Source: Fulvia fulva
Lineage: Eukaryota; Ascomycota; Dothideomycetes; Mycosphaerellales; Mycosphaerellaceae
Length of the DNA: 64,000 nucleotides
Direction: 5' to 3'
Assembly (NCBI RefSeq): GCF_020509005.1
Contig: NC_063012.1
Span: 10,106,001 to 10,170,000 of the forward strand
In this document: positions 26,790 to 64,000 of the stretch, piece by piece
Layout: every line of letters starts with the position of its first letter
How positions within the stretch are numbered: the stretch's first letter is position 1
The notes under the pieces: generated by a model
Databases searched by the model: none
Told to the model about the DNA's origin: nothing
Seen by the model: only the letters and a program-made list of their open reading frames with translations
Position numbers and translations under genes: made by a program

Positions 26790-27841
26790 TGTGGTGTATG
26801 GCAGAATCCGTCGAAAAGTCGTGCGAGTGCTGCGCTTGATGTCGGTGGTGTAGACTAGCTGTCACGCAGAGGTCGGACAGCGCGTGTAGATGTCGTTGTC
26901 GCGCAAGGTGGTGAGAGGGTTTTGATGGGCGCAAACTGGCGCCGCTACGTCACAACAGCCAAATCTTGTGCCGTGCCTGCTTTGTCGCAGCGCTGCGCCA
27001 CAAGATCATCGCCTCATTAATTTGCCGACCCGGTTCACCTGACGCCTCGTTTGACCTGTGGCAACGCTTGTTTTGCCCACCAGTGACTGCCGGCGGGTGT
27101 GCTGGTGCCTGCTTTTACCTTAGATCCGCACCGTTCAGCTGCTGTCGAAACTCAATCCTCGCGATCGAGTGGCTCAGCACTGCAAAGCGAACAACATCTC
27201 TGCTCCGCGGCATCTTCTTCATCGCGCCGGCATCACACGAATCGATGCCGCAGCAAACGCGCGACGGGCAGCAGCCACAATCACACTTCCAAGCAAGCTT
27301 TGAAGAGCACTGCAATCTTGTTTTGCCAACCGCACGCTCTTGCTTGGGTTTAGCTCTGGACATGGCTCATGACCAGCAGGATACTTGTGAAGACTACTTC
27401 GCACGTACATTTTGCCTGTACCGCTAGACCGAATCTCAGCAGGTGACCCCATCAGGTACAATTGTTAGTGTTCCTCCATGTGTCCGGTTGATGTCTGCAC
27501 ACACACGCTCACAATCGCTTATGCCATCCTGGTATGTGCGAACTAATCGATGATCCGGAGCGAAATCAAAGCCACCACTCATAGGTAACCTCAAGTTGCG
27601 GCGACATTAGGCATACGAAGGCCAGTGCTATAGGGAAGCGTACTCACGACTACGCACGACGACCTTCAGTGCCCACACGAACGGACGCAGGCGCCGGGAT
27701 TGCAACGATAGCATCTCCCTCACGTCATGCTATTCACCTTGATGGATGACACCAGACATCGAAATTGCAGTTTCGTGGACCTCCTTCTGCTACATGTATG
27801 CTTCGAAATGACGACCTCGCCATAACCTGCGACTCCCTCCA
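26790..27841. other. Intergenic, no gene seen
   Basis: About 1.05 kb holding the promoter of the MARVEL gene and the 3' flank of the BDH-like gene. A plus-strand frame at 26966-27427 has no start context or domain and I do not accept it. Confidence 0.5.
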
Positions 27842-29211
27842 CTACTTCTCACCACTGCCTCTCACCATGATCTTAACCTGATTTTCCTTGTCATTGATCA
27901 GTGTTAGAAACCCTTCCTCCCGCACTTGATCCATCTCAATCCGCTTGGTGATCATCTTGTGCGCCATGTCCAGCTGACCATCTGAAAGAGCATCGATCAC
28001 TTCCTGGAGATCGGCCTTCACGTAGGTCGCAACACCGAGATACTTTCTTTCTTTAAAGACGAGGTCATTTGGCCAGAGGGTACATCTGATGACTGTAAGC
28101 TCTCCCTCTTGACAGGTCGGGACTCTGGCTTACCTTTTCTCCCAGATTGCAATATTGACGTGTGTGCCGCGAGCCTTCAGAGCGTTTACTGCTGCATCTA
28201 AACCGACCTGCACGCCAGCAGCGTCAAAGGTCACGTCCACCCCTTTCTTGTTGGTCAGCTCGAGACATCTTGCAACGATGTCATCTTGCGTGGGATCTAG
28301 CACGACATGCGCTCCAAACTCCTTGGCGAAATCCTTCCGCATCTTCGAAACCTCAGAAACGATGATTTGAGGGCAGCCACGAGCTCGAAGGGCCTGGATC
28401 ACAGACAGACCAATGGGTCCTCCACCAAGGATCAAAGCCGTGTCTGTTCTCTTGAAGGGCGATGAATTCACGGCATGCCAGCCAACTGCCAAGGGCTCAA
28501 CGAGCGCTGTGTCCATCATCGTCAGCATCTTCAATCACAGCCGAATGATTGACTCACCAGCAACGTCCAAAGGTACATTGTCAGGGCAGTTGTACAGAGT
28601 GTACTCCGGAACGACCAGGTGCTCTGAAAGTCCACCGCCCCAACCTAGGGACCGTGTCCGGATCAGCACAACTCAGATACCAAATGGCATCGACACGATG
28701 TTACTGACCACTGAGACCTATAAACCCATTCGACCAACAACAGTTCACGAGGCCATCTTGGCATGCGCCACAGTCTCCGTCGAAGATGATGGGTGCAACA
28801 ACGACCCTACTGCCCACCTTGAATCTCTCCGAGACACCCTCACCGACCTCTTCGATGATTCCGGCAAATTCGTGCCCGAAAGTCAATGGAATTGTTTCAC
28901 CCGTGATCGGATGCGGAGTTGATTCTGGACAAAGAGATGGCCCACCCATGTATTCATGGAGGTCGCTTCCTAGCGATTCGTTCAGCGTCAAACTTGTCGG
29001 ATGGAACAACACCGAGTGGTCATACCACAAATCCCTATCGACGGTTCAGCGTCGATCTTCAGTTGGAACAATAGTCCATGGCCATACCACACCATGCAGG
29101 CTTCACTTTCACTTGACCAGGACCACACACTGGCTCTGGGATATCCTCGAAGCGGAGATCTTCCTTGCCATGGAATCGTACAGCCTTCATCGTCTTGTTC
29201 TGGTCTGACAT
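27842..29211 (-). CDS. Zinc alcohol dehydrogenase, (R,R)-butanediol dehydrogenase (BDH1) type
   Basis: Six exons: complement(join(27842..28085,28134..28506,28558..28644,28709..28969,29026..29034,29088..29211)), 365 aa. Such enzymes interconvert acetoin and 2,3-butanediol with NAD(H), in the cytosol. Catalytic-zinc motif WCGICGSDLHEY at residues 40-51, GHEFAG at about 77, structural-zinc cysteines in GDCGACQDGLVNCC, and Rossmann motif GGGPIGL. Exon 2 is a 9-nt microexon supplying Ile43, Cys44 and parts of two Gly codons; Cys44 is the expected zinc ligand. The introns on both sides (29035-29087 and 28970-29025) are homologous to each other. All joins keep phase and conserved blocks. Related sugar or polyol substrates remain possible. 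Confidence 0.88.
28970..29087 (-). repeat. Twin homologous introns flanking a 9-nt microexon
   Basis: Intron 1 (53 nt) and intron 2 (56 nt) share the start GTATGxCCA, a central TTGTTCCA, the branch region GACGCTGAAC and the end TCGxTAG in the same order and spacing. Both interrupt the exon sequence at TGTG^G. About two thirds of aligned positions match, unlike any other intron pair in the window. Confidence 0.75.
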
Positions 29212-30058
29212 GGTGCGAACTTGAACGATCAACAGAGAATTATCAAGTATGTTTGTCGAAAGTCTCAAGTTTGGCAGGAAAGACGACAGATTGCATTAGA
29301 GTCGATTCTACTCCGGAGGATATTCAGGCGACGCGTTTTACCTCATGTGGTCTGCCATGGCGGAAGTATGTTGCCTCGTCGCCGCTGCCCATACGCTGGT
29401 GACTGGAAAGCGGGGTGAGGGGCTTTGTGCTCGCGAGAAGCTCCTGCCAGTTCTGAATCTGGCAGGTCTGTCGAGAGCACAAACCTCAACATTAACAGAA
29501 GTGCCTGGAACTGACAGTGATTCGAGACCTTTGAGAGGAAGAACTGTAGACACAGCAAGACTCTCGTATGGCATCGAGGACCGAAGACCCACGACATCAA
29601 CCGGTTGAGCCTCGCACAAGGCATGGGTTGGGGGCCCGCTGAAGCTCCCCACGATGATGACGATGCTGCGGGGAGAATTGCAGCGATGCGGCTCTGCGGC
29701 CAGCACGCGTTCGAAGGACGATCGTCGCAAACACGAACATAAGCTCTCGAGCAGTCAGCTCCATGCGCGTCAATCAATAGTGGCCGGGCTCACTTGGGAC
29801 ATATTTCCTGAAGAAGAGAGCCTCAAACGAAGCCTACACGGAGCAAGACCTTCCAGTCTGTGGCAGGCACGGCAAACTGGCCAAGCTCTCAATGCTTGAC
29901 GATGCATGATATCACCTTCGCCTGCAGCTGGGTGTAGATTTTCCGACAGCGCATCCTGCCTTATAAGCTCCCGCGAGGTGAGACACTTTCCCTTAGTTCT
30001 ACAGTTTCACTTACTCAACACACGACTTCCACAACCACTACAGTCACATACCGCAAAG
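29212..30058. promoter_or_regulatory. Divergent promoter region, BDH-like / ADH6-like
   Basis: 847 bp between two divergent dehydrogenase starts. A TATA-like TATAAG lies at 29962-29967, about 97 bp before the plus-strand ATG, followed by a CA/CT-rich leader with CACACGACTTCCACAACCAC. No supportable gene inside. Confidence 0.5.
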
Positions 30059-31372
30059 ATGGTCTATCCAGATACCGCCGAGGGCTTCGTGATAAAAGAT
30101 CAGAAGCAATGGCAACAGTTCGAAAAGCAGGAGTTCAAATTGAAGCCCTTCGAAGATAGAGACATCGACATTGCAATTGAGTGCTGTGGTGTATGCGGGT
30201 CGGACGTTCACACCATCAACGGTTTGTCACTCACCACAGGCGCCATTGAGCACAACTGACAGGTCCAGGCGGCTGGGGCGACTGCCCACTCCCAATCTGC
30301 GTCGGCCACGAAGTCGTAGGCAAGGCGATAAAAGTTGGAAAAGATGTCAAGACAATCAAGGTCGGCGACCGTGTCGGTGTCGGTGCCCAGATCCAGGCCG
30401 ACCTGACCTGCAACAACTGCAAAGCAGACCAAGAAAACTACTGCCCCAACTCAGTAGACACATACGGTGCTCCATACAAGGATGGCACAATCTCGCAAGG
30501 TGGCTACGCCTCACACATTCGTGCCCACGAGTACTTCACCTTCAAGATTCCGGACAACATTGAGAGCGAGATTGCCGCACCTATGCTGTGCGCTGGTCTT
30601 ACGGTGTACAGCCCTCTGGTTCGTCTGGGAGCTGGGCCGGGCAAGAAGTTTGCTATTGTGGGAATGTAAGTGGCGGAAGAACTTTTTGTGACCCCCAACG
30701 GACAGCTTCGCTAACATCAGACACGACAGGGGTGGTCTTGGTCACTTCGCAGTGCTCTGGGCTGCGGCTCTTGGCGCGGAGGTCTACGTCCTCTCGCACA
30801 GCCCGAACAAGAAGGAGGATGCGCTCAAGATGGGCGCCAAGCACTTCATCGTCACGAACGATGAGGGCTGGCACAAGGATCTCGCTTTCACCTTCGACTT
30901 CATCCTCAACTGCGCCGATGCTACGCACAAGTTCAAGCTCACGGACTACTTCTCGACTCTGAAGGTTATGGGCAGATTCCACAATGTTGGCTTCGGTGAC
31001 CACCCTCTCCCAGAGATCATGGCGCAGGACTTTGCAAGCAATGGCTGCTACATTGGTGCTTCGCACATTGGCAATAGGCCTGAGATGCTGGCCATGTTCG
31101 ACCTTGCCTCGAAGCAGAACATCAAGAGCTGGGTGAGTAAAGTTCTGTACAGAAGCCTTGTTGAGACACCTGAGACACACTCAGGACGCCCATGGCTTCT
31201 GCCACATCATTTCGAGGCACTTAGGCTGACTTATCTTTCCTTTCATTAGATCAAGACCACACCAATAAGTGAAGAGGGCTGCAAGGAGGCTGTCACCGCC
31301 GTGTCAGAGAACACTGTGCGATACCGTTACGTCCTTACCGACTACGACAAGGTCTTTGGTAAGCGTGATTAG
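30059..31372 (+). CDS. NADP-type zinc alcohol dehydrogenase, ADH6/cinnamyl-alcohol dehydrogenase family
   Basis: Join(30059..30221,30263..30665,30730..31132,31250..31372), 363 aa; introns 41, 64 and 117 bp. The first intron is very short and uses GTTTGT. Catalytic zinc motif CGVCGSDVHT at about residues 45-54, GHEVVG at about 72, structural-zinc cysteines in TCNNCKADQENYC, Rossmann GMGGLGH at about 190, and the family ending PISEEGCKEAV...YDKVFG. Members reduce aliphatic and aromatic aldehydes with NADPH, which can help detoxify aldehydes. All zinc ligands are present. The substrate is not determinable from sequence. Confidence 0.88.
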
Positions 31373-31522: not shown

Positions 31523-32769
31523 CTAGCTCAAATCCAGCACCACTCTACCAACCAGTTCACCACGGTCCATCTTCTCGAATGTCTCAGTCAACTGCTCCAT
31601 CTTTGCAGTCGTGAAATGTGTCTTCACCAGACCCCTCTCGGCGAATTCAAGAGTCTCAATGGCATCCTTACGATCACCAACCGCGACTCCCTTGATCGTC
31701 TGAGCCTTCGCTACCAGGAACTGAGGGTATGCCGTGGCGATGGGCTTGAGTTCGCCCTCCGGAAGACCGACGCAGACGCAGGTACCGCCGAACTTGAGGA
31801 GACCCATGGCGCTGTGATACTGTCAGTCATGTCCAAGTTACGAAAATCACGGTATGTTCACTCTCACCTCGCATAAGCTCCATTAGCAGCCGTAAGTACC
31901 AACACAGCCTGCGCACCCAGACCGCCCGTAACCTTCTTGACCTCCTCCTCCGCTTTACCCTGCGTATGATCGATGAAAACTTCAGCACCGCACTCTTTCA
32001 CAAGCTCCTGCTTGTTGCCAGCGTCAATGCCAATCACACGCATTCCCATACCACGCGCGGCGATTTGGACTGCGAGATGGCCGAGACCTCCTCCAGCGCC
32101 CAACAGCACGACCCAGTCGCCGGCTTTGGCGCCGGACTTGCGGAGCGCCGAGTAGACGGTTACGCCGGCGCAGAGCATGGGGGCTGCGGCGTCGGATGGG
32201 AGGCTGTCGGGGATGGGGGTTACGTAGCTGGCTGAGCCGAGGACGTATTGTTGGAATGTGCCTGTGGGAGGTTAGTGGGCTCTAGACGAGCAAGGCGTCA
32301 GGGGGCGATATTTCGTTACCAGGCGTGTAGTATCCTGAGACCTTCTGGTTGAAGCAGACGCCGTCGTGGCCTGCGTGGCATGCTGGGCAGGAGTCGCAGA
32401 TGGCGCTGATCTGGGATGTGTCAATGGCTGTCCCAATTGCATCACAACGATTCCAGTGAACATTCTTACCCATTTAATGCCAACACGGTCTCCAACCTTG
32501 ACGGAGCTCTGCTCAGCGCCAGGGCCCAACTTGACGACCTTACCAACACCCTCGTGTCCACCAACTTGTCCTGGCTGTGTCGGATATGGTAGACCTGCCC
32601 ATCTGTTCGTCATAACACCGAGATCACTGTGACATACTCCAGAGTGCGACAGGTTAATGAGAACCTCTCCTGGACCCGGCTCCGGAGTATCGAGCTCTAC
32701 AATCTTCGTTGAAACCTTTCCAGGCTCATCGTAGATGCAGGCCTTGTACTTCTTTGGGATGTCGACCAT
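31523..32769 (-). CDS. Alcohol dehydrogenase, ADH1 type
   Basis: Complement(join(31523..31811,31868..32261,32320..32410,32470..32769)), 357 aa; introns 56, 58 and 59 bp. This is the fungal ethanol/acetaldehyde NAD-dependent class. Catalytic zinc motif HSGVCHSDLG, then GGHEGVG; four structural-zinc cysteines in CDSCPACHAGHDGVC; the hallmark FNQKVSGYYTPGTFQQYV is read across intron 2; Rossmann motif GAGGGLGH. The ADH1-type end GLPEGELKPIATAYPQFLVA is intact. It converges on the ADH6-like gene with a 150-bp gap. The yeast-type tetrameric cytosolic enzyme is the expected form. Confidence 0.93.
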
Positions 32770-59990: not shown

Positions 59991-61153
59991 CTTTTACTAA
60001 GAACTATACTACTTCTACTTAAATTACGACGGTATCTTAATACGACGATATCCTATAGAATCGTTACTAGAAGGATAATTCCCCTTTAGATTCTTCGCTA
60101 TCTAGTAAGTCTACTTAATAGGTACGTACATTATACCCCGACTCGCTATATCGCTTATAGCGTCGTAGCCTTAGTACTAGCCGAACACTATCTAGCGACT
60201 CTCTACTTACTTCCTACCTCCTAGTATCCTCTAGAGGTATTAATTACGACGCCTTATTAAAGGTTAGAGACCCTCTAGACTAAATGTACCTACGCTTTCG
60301 TACTTTCCGCTATATAAGGGCCTCGTTAGACTTACGTAGCTTACTAATCTTGCTTCGTATAAGAGCTATCTAATACGCTATCTCTCTACTCCCTCTCTAT
60401 TACCCTATTAAACGATCTACCTCTTTCTACTACGCCTTTCTAAACCCGTAACGACGCTCTAAGATATAATAACACCTATTATAAACCCTCTCTCGTCGAA
60501 GTTATAGGTGTCCTAGTTATTACGGTTTACTACTACCGTAACGTCGCGCCGCGGCTCTTCCCCGCGGGGAACCCGTACCCCCGCGTACTAGCGCCTTAGC
60601 GCTTCCTTATATATCTTACGCGCTTCGCGCTTCTCTTTCGTAGCCTTACTAAACAACGCTTATTTTACGGCAACCCTATACTATCGTCTTATAGATTACT
60701 ACCCGTAATAGTTTATTCGGTCCTATAAGTGGCCTATCTAGTTAGGCTAGTAGTTATAATCAAATCTTACTAGTAAAGTACGCGTTAAGGTAGGTCAAAT
60801 TTACTATAGTTACTAACCGTCGAGTCGCGCGTATAGGCGTATTAACAATAACTATAGTCGCGTAAACAAGCGTATTAGTTAAGTTAATAGATTACCTCTC
60901 TCCTTTACGTAAAACGCGCGCCTCCCTTCTCTTATAGGGCCCTTATATACCTACTAAGAGAGCAGTCTTATCTACTACGTAATAGTATAATATAGCTATA
61001 CCCGGTAGTACTACTAACGGGGTACTCTTACTTAAGTAACCTCTTTATCTAGATCTTAGTAAGTATAAGCGTTAGTCGCTCGTACGCGCTAAGCTTTTCC
61101 TAACCGTATCTACTAAAACGTAGACACTCGATAACCTAGGTATCGATACCGCC

Positions 61154-63120
61154 CTAGGTACCTTCCCTTCCGACGACGACTCGAACGTATTCGCCGCCAA
61201 ATAATAAGAGATCGAGAAGGACCTACTACCTAAAGAAGAGTAATTTGTCTTAACCTCCGACCCTATTAACTTTGTACAATTCCTCGACGAAGAATAGATC
61301 TTAGAAGAAGGAGGAATTAAGGTGTATAAGATTATAGAGTTAAGAGATAATATATCTATATAAGATAGTAAAACTAATAATATACGCTAACCTAAGGAGT
61401 AGGTAATTGCCTTAGAGTATACTACTATTAAGAGCCTAGCCGAGTTCGCGACTCGTACTATAGTATACCCGGAGATTATATTTCACCTCGTTCGCTAGAT
61501 ATAGTCAGACTTTATTATACTTTTTGACTAGGTCGAGTCTCTAAAGAAGGCTAATAAGGTTATATAGCGTAAGTACGCCGATATAAAGAAGGAACGTAAT
61601 ATCGTATCCGAGAGTCTTAGTTAACTCGAAAAGGATAAGGATGTTAAGGGCCTCTTTATATTCTACTTTAACAAATACTAGAAGTATTAGAGTTAGATAT
61701 AAGACCTTAAGGAAGCTAATTAGCGCCTCTAATAGGATAACGATACGCTCTTTAGATAGGTCGAGGAGTCGTAGGTAGGTATATTACCTACGGACATTAA
61801 AGCCCTATCTAAGCGTAATTAGGCTTTAAATAAGGAGGTAGTAGAGCTAAAGGCTTAGCTAGTAGCTAAGGATACGAACGGTACTAGCGATACTAGCGGT
61901 ACTAACGATAATAATAATAATGACTATAGTCGTTAGGTCCGCGTCTACTCCCCTCGTCGTAACGGTGTTTTACGATTACCTACGCCTCCTACTTAGTAGG
62001 ACCGTATAGGTAGAGGTACCCGACGAGGAGGTAGTAGAGGTAGTAGCGATAACGACGGAGACAACTCTAATAACGATAAGGGTAGAGATAATAGTCGACT
62101 ACGCCGTTACCTACGCCGTAACTCCTTACGACGAGAACGCTAGGGTATACCTAGTAGTACTTCTAGGGTAACTAGTAATACCGCCGTTAGCTAGTTCACT
62201 ACTATCGAACCCTCCGTTAATATTATATATACTAATAAGTTAGTTAAGGACCTAGAAAGTAAGTTCGATAATAAGAATATTAACTTTGACCGTTAGCTCG
62301 ATTAGCTAGAGATTAAGCTGTCCGTAATATAGTTCTAGACTATCGAGGACGGACTACGCTATATCCTTAACTACCTCGACGGGTACCCGTACTAGCTATA
62401 TAATCCGCGAGTACCCTCTAAGCGTACTAAGCGCAATTACGTTAACCCCTTTAAGTCTATCGATAGGATGATCTAATTCCTTATCGATCGGTATAGTAAG
62501 AAGGACGTCGTAGGTAAGGCCTTCTAGAAGCTCTAGGTCTTATAGTAGGGTAAGAACGAGTCATTTTCTATCTTTATCGCTAAGTACGACAAATAGCGTA
62601 ACTTATACGACCTATTAGCTAAGACTAATCACCGCCTACTCGAGGGTAAGCTTAACTATAAATATATAGAGGCACTGCCTATAGAGACTAAGGACCGCGA
62701 AGACTTAGTCGACCTATACTATAAGCTCGAAGCTAAGTTCGAGCGCCTAAAGTCAAAGACCCTAGCTATACTACGACTACCTCGTAGTACTAGCGGTAGT
62801 AATAGCGGTAGTAACGGTACTATACCTACCGCGCCCGGCGTAGCCTAAGGTTTAGGCCTTAAGCTATACGCTTAGATACTACGCGAATTTAAGAAACTTA
62901 AGAAGCTCGAGCCTAAGGAGAAGGCTAGTATTATCGTAGTAGGCGGTTATGTCCGCTACCGCCGTATAGACTATAACTTATACTCGCTAGACTACCCTAT
63001 TAAGTAGTATAAGCGCCCTCCGCCGCGCGCGAATACTAGCTCTATAATATAGACACCGGCTAACCCTTAGTAATAGGGAAATAGCTAGACTAACGCTTAA
63101 GTACGATAACCGTTAGTCCT
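61154..63120 (+). pseudogene. Gag-like polyprotein relic with RIP-type stops
   Basis: One plus-strand frame reads through about 650 codons interrupted only by TAG and TAA, never TGA, in the parts I read. That is what CpA-to-TpA change does to CAG and CAA (Gln). Parts: an N-terminal helical, charged region; a Ser/Arg/Gly-rich linker near 61900-62150; a gag-capsid-like block at about 62440-62760 (SIFIAKYDK..RNLYDLLAKT); and a zinc-knuckle-like segment at 62948-62992. There TAT/TAC (Tyr) codons occupy the four ligand positions in a x2-x4-x6 spacing, as expected if Cys and His codons were mutated. Clearly dead. Fungal retrotransposon gag is the best reading. Confidence 0.65.
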
Positions 63121-64000
63121 ACTTACGAATATAATACTAAGAAGGAAATATAGCGAGATACGGTAATATAAGAACTAGAGTACGCTTTATATATATTAGT
63201 AAGCTCTCTAACACCGCCTATTATATAAGGGGTACTAAGGCCGAGAGTGTCCCCTTACCTTATAATACTTAGTAGTATAGATAGTAATTAAGCTCTTACC
63301 TTCCTTAATTATAGAGCTACCTTTTAGTATATAAATTCTATATACGCTCGTATATATAATCTTCCTCGACTCTAGGAAGAACCTCTTTAATTAGGACTAG
63401 CTAATAGCGGCTCCGCTAACGAGCTTATTACCGAGTCTACGTACTTTCCTTTTAATATCGGCGGCTACGTCGAGATCCTTAGCTACTATTTAGTAGAATC
63501 ACTAGAGTATAATATCGTGCTCGGCTCTAGTTAGTTCGTAGACTACGAACTAGAGATATAATAGGAGAAGGGTATTATAATAATGAATTATTTAAAATGC
63601 CGTACCTATAAGGTAAACTAGAGGTCTAATAAGTACCTAATAGTATAGTCTATTAACTATCTAGCTACGCTAGTACTATTAGGTAGTTATTAACTACCGA
63701 TAGTAGAAGATAATACCGACGAAGTTACCGCTCCTACGCTATCGTTACCTAAGTATATACCCTAACTATAGTTCTATACGACGTTCGAGGACGAAGAGGA
63801 TAACTTCCGTATATATACTTAATAACCGTTACCGGTAGACGGCGTTAAGATGTTAAAGTGACTGTACTAATATACGAAATAAAAGTAACGAGTTATTAAA
63901 CTAGAACTAGAGATCGATATCGTAAACATCTCCGCGGCCTACGTATTATAGTACCGGTATATATTTAGTTAACCCCGCGGGTACGTACCTAGACCTCGCG

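Follow-up and report, generated by a model that had tools for sequence, protein, structure and literature searches.

How does a spliceosomal intron come to lie nine coding bases away from an intron that resembles it? The question is raised by a gene for a zinc-dependent dehydrogenase of the butanediol dehydrogenase type of Fulvia fulva, located on the minus strand at 27842-29211 of a 64,000-nucleotide stretch of contig NC_063012.1 (assembly GCF_020509005.1, positions 10,106,001 to 10,170,000), hereafter called the window. An initial annotation had placed introns of 53 and 56 nucleotides (introns 1 and 2) on either side of a 9-nucleotide exon, in identical TGTG^G contexts within the codons of a conserved W-C-G-I-C-G motif, and had explained them by the entry of two related introns into two identical target sites, through insertion of introner-like elements (ILEs) or through reverse splicing. 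The coordinates, lengths and exon contexts of this arrangement were confirmed in our analysis. As to its origin, we lean towards a different account, in which an older, ordinary intron at the upstream site (site A) was copied once, locally, into the downstream site (site B) in the Fulvia lineage.

Homology of introns 1 and 2

Introns 1 and 2 are homologous, as the initial annotation had claimed. In the alignment they were identical at 39 of 53 bases, exact blocks of 8 and 10 bases were still shared, and outside the donor, the branch block and the acceptor 21 of 34 bases agreed. The global alignment score of the pair was 21, compared with a mean of 1.6 and a maximum of 15 in 5000 dinucleotide shuffles in which the first six and last three bases were kept fixed (z 5.5; none of the shuffles equalled the observed score). 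The remaining nine pairs among the five introns of the gene gave z values of 0.07-2.6. Moreover, among 128 nearby candidate-intron pairs from 271 kb of sequence, a partly overlapping and non-random sample made up of the window and the fetched loci, the score of 21 was reached by introns 1 and 2 alone.

The limits of the homology can be read to the base. The exon contexts are ATGGTGTG^GGATT for intron 1 and GATTTGTG^GAAGC for intron 2, so that the two sites share five nucleotides, TGTG on the left and a single G on the right, beyond which the exon flanks differ. The copy is seamless and confined to the intron. Five or more bases matching site A across the junction were found at only 9 of the 1,096 other positions of the coding sequence (0.8%, site B included), and the shared context was therefore probably causal, though G-T-G^G flanks intron 3 too.

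The exon enclosed by the two introns, GGATTTGTG, supplies bases 2-3 of a Gly codon, the Ile and Cys codons, and base 1 of the next Gly codon of W-C-G-I-C-G. The claim that this motif is ancient held: the closest solved structure to the predicted protein, the bacterial (R,R)-butanediol dehydrogenase 6ie0 (E 3.9e-91), aligns with it without gaps over W-C-G-I-C-G-S-D-L-H-E-Y. Because the motif is also present in bacteria, the exon itself was not produced by the duplication. Among the best 120 of 6,132 homologues, of which a Cercospora protein with 86% identity was the top match, the strict form W-C-G-I-C-G-(S/T/N)-D occurred in 35, and many of the others replaced the first Cys by Val or the Trp by Phe. 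In many of them the residues at or near the first Cys differ (Val, for example), and the first TGTGG is thus not universal.

Both introns have a GTATG donor, a GACGCTGAAC block and a TAG acceptor. With a complete set of these signals, each copy should splice out separately and leave the protein unchanged; the conservation of the protein suggests that the 9-nucleotide exon is indeed spliced in. Retention of intron 1 would introduce an in-frame stop codon within that intron. If the microexon were skipped, exons 1 and 3 would be spliced together without a frameshift, and W-C-G-S-D would result, exactly as had been proposed. The second Cys of the motif is presumably a ligand of the catalytic zinc, and the skipped form would keep a single Cys ahead of G-S-D in a chain shorter by three residues.

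Further copies and related genes

The whole assembly (67,169,167 bases in 14 contigs) was scanned on both strands. Four patterns matched both introns: TTGTTCCA and GACGCTGA with gaps before and after the latter and a final TAG, a 24-place pattern of the 5' part, and two looser ones. The first occurred at two places in the whole assembly, which are introns 1 and 2. The 24-place pattern had two exact matches, again introns 1 and 2, and four with two mismatches; the rest had three. Its 135 matches in total, against 372 for the reversed control, were counts inflated by an unrelated dispersed repeat; this repeat contains GTAGTACCATCTATTATTGGTCCA and made up dozens of entries in the list, on many contigs. 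The looser patterns, with introns 1 and 2 counted in, stayed near the control level (5 matches vs 4 in the control, and 27 vs 29), and by eye the three other matches of the former fell on apparent coding sequence, on its own or the opposite strand, and in no evident intron. When 24 fetched non-self loci from the pattern scans were compared with a model of the intron pair, no match was obtained at E<=10. A sequence-only covariance model found both introns in the window, where its other matches had E values of 2.2 or worse.

Other scans had a narrower reach. In the whole assembly with up to three mismatches, the 23-nucleotide 3' halves of introns 1 and 2 each matched only themselves, and so did a 32-place core on the spacing of intron 2. 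Each of these scans matches one intron and cannot see its partner, and therefore tests for closer relatives only. Searches of the BLAST type with either intron returned the query, missed the partner and carry no weight. A candidate resembling the 3' half of intron 1 (L050 on C6, score 15) was dropped, as by eye its position read as coding sequence of the opposite strand. A wider family is accordingly not supported: within their sensitivity the scans disclosed no third member of this intron class, although a strongly degenerated family could be missed.

In addition, we compared intron positions in paralogues, where introns were placed by the reading frame and the GT...AG ends. Paralogue L061 (C2), the product of which is 41-46% identical to that of the gene at 27842-29211 in the aligned pieces, has a predicted 65-nucleotide intron (TGCG^GC) that coincides exactly with site A and agrees in phase. 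The predicted intron lies inside the second Cys codon in L077 (C5) and in the Asp codon in L066 (C13), and no intron crosses the motif in L059 (C4).

For relatives, splice sites were deduced from protein fragments in which gene callers had read through into introns. Out of 12 fragments of exon 1, P0127 and P0129 are readable as using the donor of site A, and P0123 as using either site A or a site four bases further on. P0122 and P0125 (the latter read by hand and containing a stop) can be read as using a donor that lies two bases upstream of A and also allow one in the Trp codon, which is the reading given to P0131; four of the 12 read on as W-C-G-I-C-G-S-D-L, and for two an exit from the exon in the Asp codon is the best reading. 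The acceptor of site B fitted none of the 35 exon-3 fragments enumerated, a count that leaves out fragments starting downstream or holding the full motif; 32 allowed an acceptor in the Asp codon and three fitted nothing. The donor of site B is formally allowed by 8 of 14 upstream fragments (six of exon 1, together with P0081 and P0082), the residues of which run past B. As far as these protein fragments can tell, for none is an intron at site B the best explanation, and site A appears to be shared by position while B so far does not.

The W-C-G-I-C-G-S-D-L-H region is an intron hotspot (P0121-P0201; L059, L061, L066 and L077). Over about 30 bases around the motif introns occupy several positions, and the commonest reading places them in the Asp codon, in phase 1. 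P0019 and P0133, which had seemed to show introns elsewhere inside the motif, were left aside, being ambiguous once all phases were enumerated. Deposited protein models from several fungi (P0049, P0059, P0060, P0078, P0083, P0087 and P0104) lack or distort the motif, as in WVGIYLHEY, perhaps through mis-predicted splicing. The initial annotation regarded its proposal as refuted if the genome held no other introns of this class and both introns were present in all distant relatives; the former was what we observed at the sensitivity of the scans, but the latter was not, because the fragments of relatives put introns elsewhere in the motif.

Origin of the intron pair

That the intron alone was copied into site B is the simplest account of these observations. 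Intron 1, at site A (TGTG^GG), would be the older, ordinary intron, and an intron-only copy of it would have entered site B, which lies nine bases downstream and has the same TGTG^G context; the exon stretch between sites A and B would thereby have become a 9-nucleotide microexon. The copy could have been made by break repair or by a replication template switch on DNA, primed by the TGTGG repeat, or by reverse splicing. What we observed is the homology, its exact limits, the lack of any further copy detected in the assembly and the predicted intron of L061 at site A, whereas the direction from A to B and the route are inferred. We prefer copying at the DNA level because priming by microhomology provides the matching flanks for free; the data are compatible with both routes.

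In reverse splicing, excised intron 1 would have entered site B in its own messenger RNA or in R-loop DNA, with reverse transcription or repair as the next step. Such a route would copy the intron alone, seamlessly and together with its splice sites; the TGTG^G context, identical at both sites, would offer matching 5' exon bases as a guide, and the retention of introns 3-5 is allowed by partial recombination in the model described in PMC3443670. The same outcome is nevertheless expected from DNA-level copying, which leaves reverse splicing an unlikely choice. Moreover, TGTG^G differs from the proto-splice motif AG^G. It is similarly doubtful, though conceivable, that the spliceosome or R-loop repair reinserted the intron at a site picked by TGTG^G identity, creating the microexon in one step with no mobile family involved. 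The reverse splicing put forward in the initial annotation is therefore tenable as local copying from a neighbour, but not as spread of the introner type.

Independent insertion of degenerate ILEs at the two identical sites is in our judgement quite improbable. Fulvia fulva is known for ILEs, which decay until they are indistinguishable from regular introns, and ILE pairs 145-626 bp apart in one gene have been reported in its relatives (PMC4457414). The present case shares with the ILEs of Fulvia fulva and its relatives the species, the similarity of introns within one gene and the seamless junctions, and a 7-bp hairpin surrounds the branch site of intron 1, but not that of intron 2. ILEs, however, occur in hundreds of near-identical copies and are longer than regular introns of 50-55 bp (same source), and they have a stable predicted structure (PMC8469720), whereas introns 1 and 2 are only two copies of regular length, lack stable structure or inverted repeats of this kind and do not fold unusually (z -1.33 and +1.27, respectively). 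Two adjacent copies sharing exact blocks, with no third found at the sensitivity of the scans, are also unlike independent dispersal. On these grounds, the ILE origin was not upheld.

Another conceivable origin is tandem genomic duplication of the intron with flanking exon and later loss of the surplus codons. Tandem duplication leads the event counts in table 1 of PMC3443670 and is described for two fission yeast cases (PMC3629103), and it has a local source in common with our case. Here, in contrast, existing splice sites were copied and no exon bases beyond TGTG and G were duplicated. W-C-G-I-C-G is no longer or shorter here than in the bacterial homologue, so that a duplicated stretch of exon and intron would have had to lose exactly nine nucleotides in a further step, and we consider this explanation very improbable. 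We attach the least belief of all to the idea that A and B each held an older intron and gene conversion homogenised the two, or that their likeness reflects a bias of splice signals. The hotspot in paralogues and relatives would favour it, but conversion requires similarity beforehand, and signal bias explains neither the identity outside the signals nor its absence from the nine other intron pairs of the gene.

Several observations weigh against a single local copy from A to B. A family as diverged as introns 1 and 2, but without the exact blocks of the patterns, would escape the scans. The score of 21 was also reached by 233 of 200,000 random pairs drawn from 1,039 candidates, with overlaps and duplicates kept and the pairs uninspected, and the G-T-G^G context is repeated in the gene at introns 1-3. 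The copying may have run in the opposite direction, from B to A. The intron of L061 resembles intron 1 only weakly (z 1.8) and intron 2 marginally (z 3.8; 1 of 1000 shuffles; one of ten comparisons), and the sharing of site A with this paralogue may therefore represent parallel gain at a hotspot. Finally, the intron positions of relatives rest on read-through protein fragments and not on DNA, and with all phases enumerated P0127, P0129 and P0123 also allow sites 3-5 bases upstream of A.

The gene and the meaning of its intron pair

The gene has six predicted exons, and removal of all five introns yields a protein of 365 amino acids with the domains ADH_N and ADH_zinc_N. Several protein fragments of relatives quit the exon at the same places as introns 3 and 4. 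An Rfam search of 27800-29300 gave no match.

Features of the dehydrogenase gene, with positions counted from the first base of the window
Feature	Position	Strand	Remarks
Exon 1	29088..29211	-	ends ...AWCG; Gly codon split after base 1
Intron 1	29035..29087	-	site A, TGTG^GG; 53 nucleotides, GTATGG...TAG, branch block GACGCTGAAC
Microexon GGATTTGTG	29026..29034	-	9 nucleotides
Intron 2	28970..29025	-	site B, TGTG^GA; 56 nucleotides, homologous to intron 1
Exon 3	28709..28969	-	begins G-S-D-L-H-E-Y
Intron 3	28645..28708	-	64 nucleotides, predicted; sequence unrelated to introns 1 and 2
Exon 4	28558..28644	-	
Intron 4	28507..28557	-	51 nucleotides, predicted; sequence unrelated to introns 1 and 2
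Exon 5	28134..28506	-	
Intron 5	28086..28133	-	48 nucleotides, predicted; sequence unrelated to introns 1 and 2
Exon 6	27842..28085	-	includes the stop codon

The gene belongs to a cluster of three alcohol-dehydrogenase-like genes, the other two of which, at about 30060-31250 (plus strand) and 32272-32769 (minus strand), were recognised by eye; the plus-strand gene reads C-C-G-V-C-G-S-D and lacks an intron both at site A and at site B. CLAFUR5_06495, an (R,R)-butanediol dehydrogenase of C. fulvum, is described as switching isoforms in both isolates during infection (PMC11694984); it may be the gene at 27842-29211, although the genome holds several paralogues. Elsewhere in the window, positions 60001-64000 have a G+C content of 0.40, compared with about 0.53-0.56 in the remainder, and are perhaps repeat-rich.

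A literature search of titles and abstract openings, with subscription journals mostly outside it, returned no earlier report of this case. Homology to another intron and a seamless copy confined to the intron are as in intron transposition or local duplication. In transposition the new intron likewise resembles an existing one, with complete splice signals and a precise site (PMC3443670), but here the likely source is a neighbour nine nucleotides away, the target context is the same five nucleotides and an RNA step is hypothetical. The stwintrons of Hypoxylaceae are also tightly packed spliceosomal introns for which related copies are discussed (PMC8469720); in our case, by contrast, both introns are complete, neither splits a splice element of the other, and nine coding bases separate them.

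The sources of many gained introns are untraceable, whereas here the likely source and its copy adjoin. The copied unit can be delimited exactly, and the five bases common to both sites hint at the way in which the target was selected. The locus also offers a concrete 9-nucleotide exon in a conserved motif, the skipping of which would stay in frame. These results suggest that in a species known for ILEs not every duplicated intron belongs to an ILE family. If reinsertion guided by TGTG^G were true, identity of exon sequence, and not a mobile family, would direct the gain of an intron.
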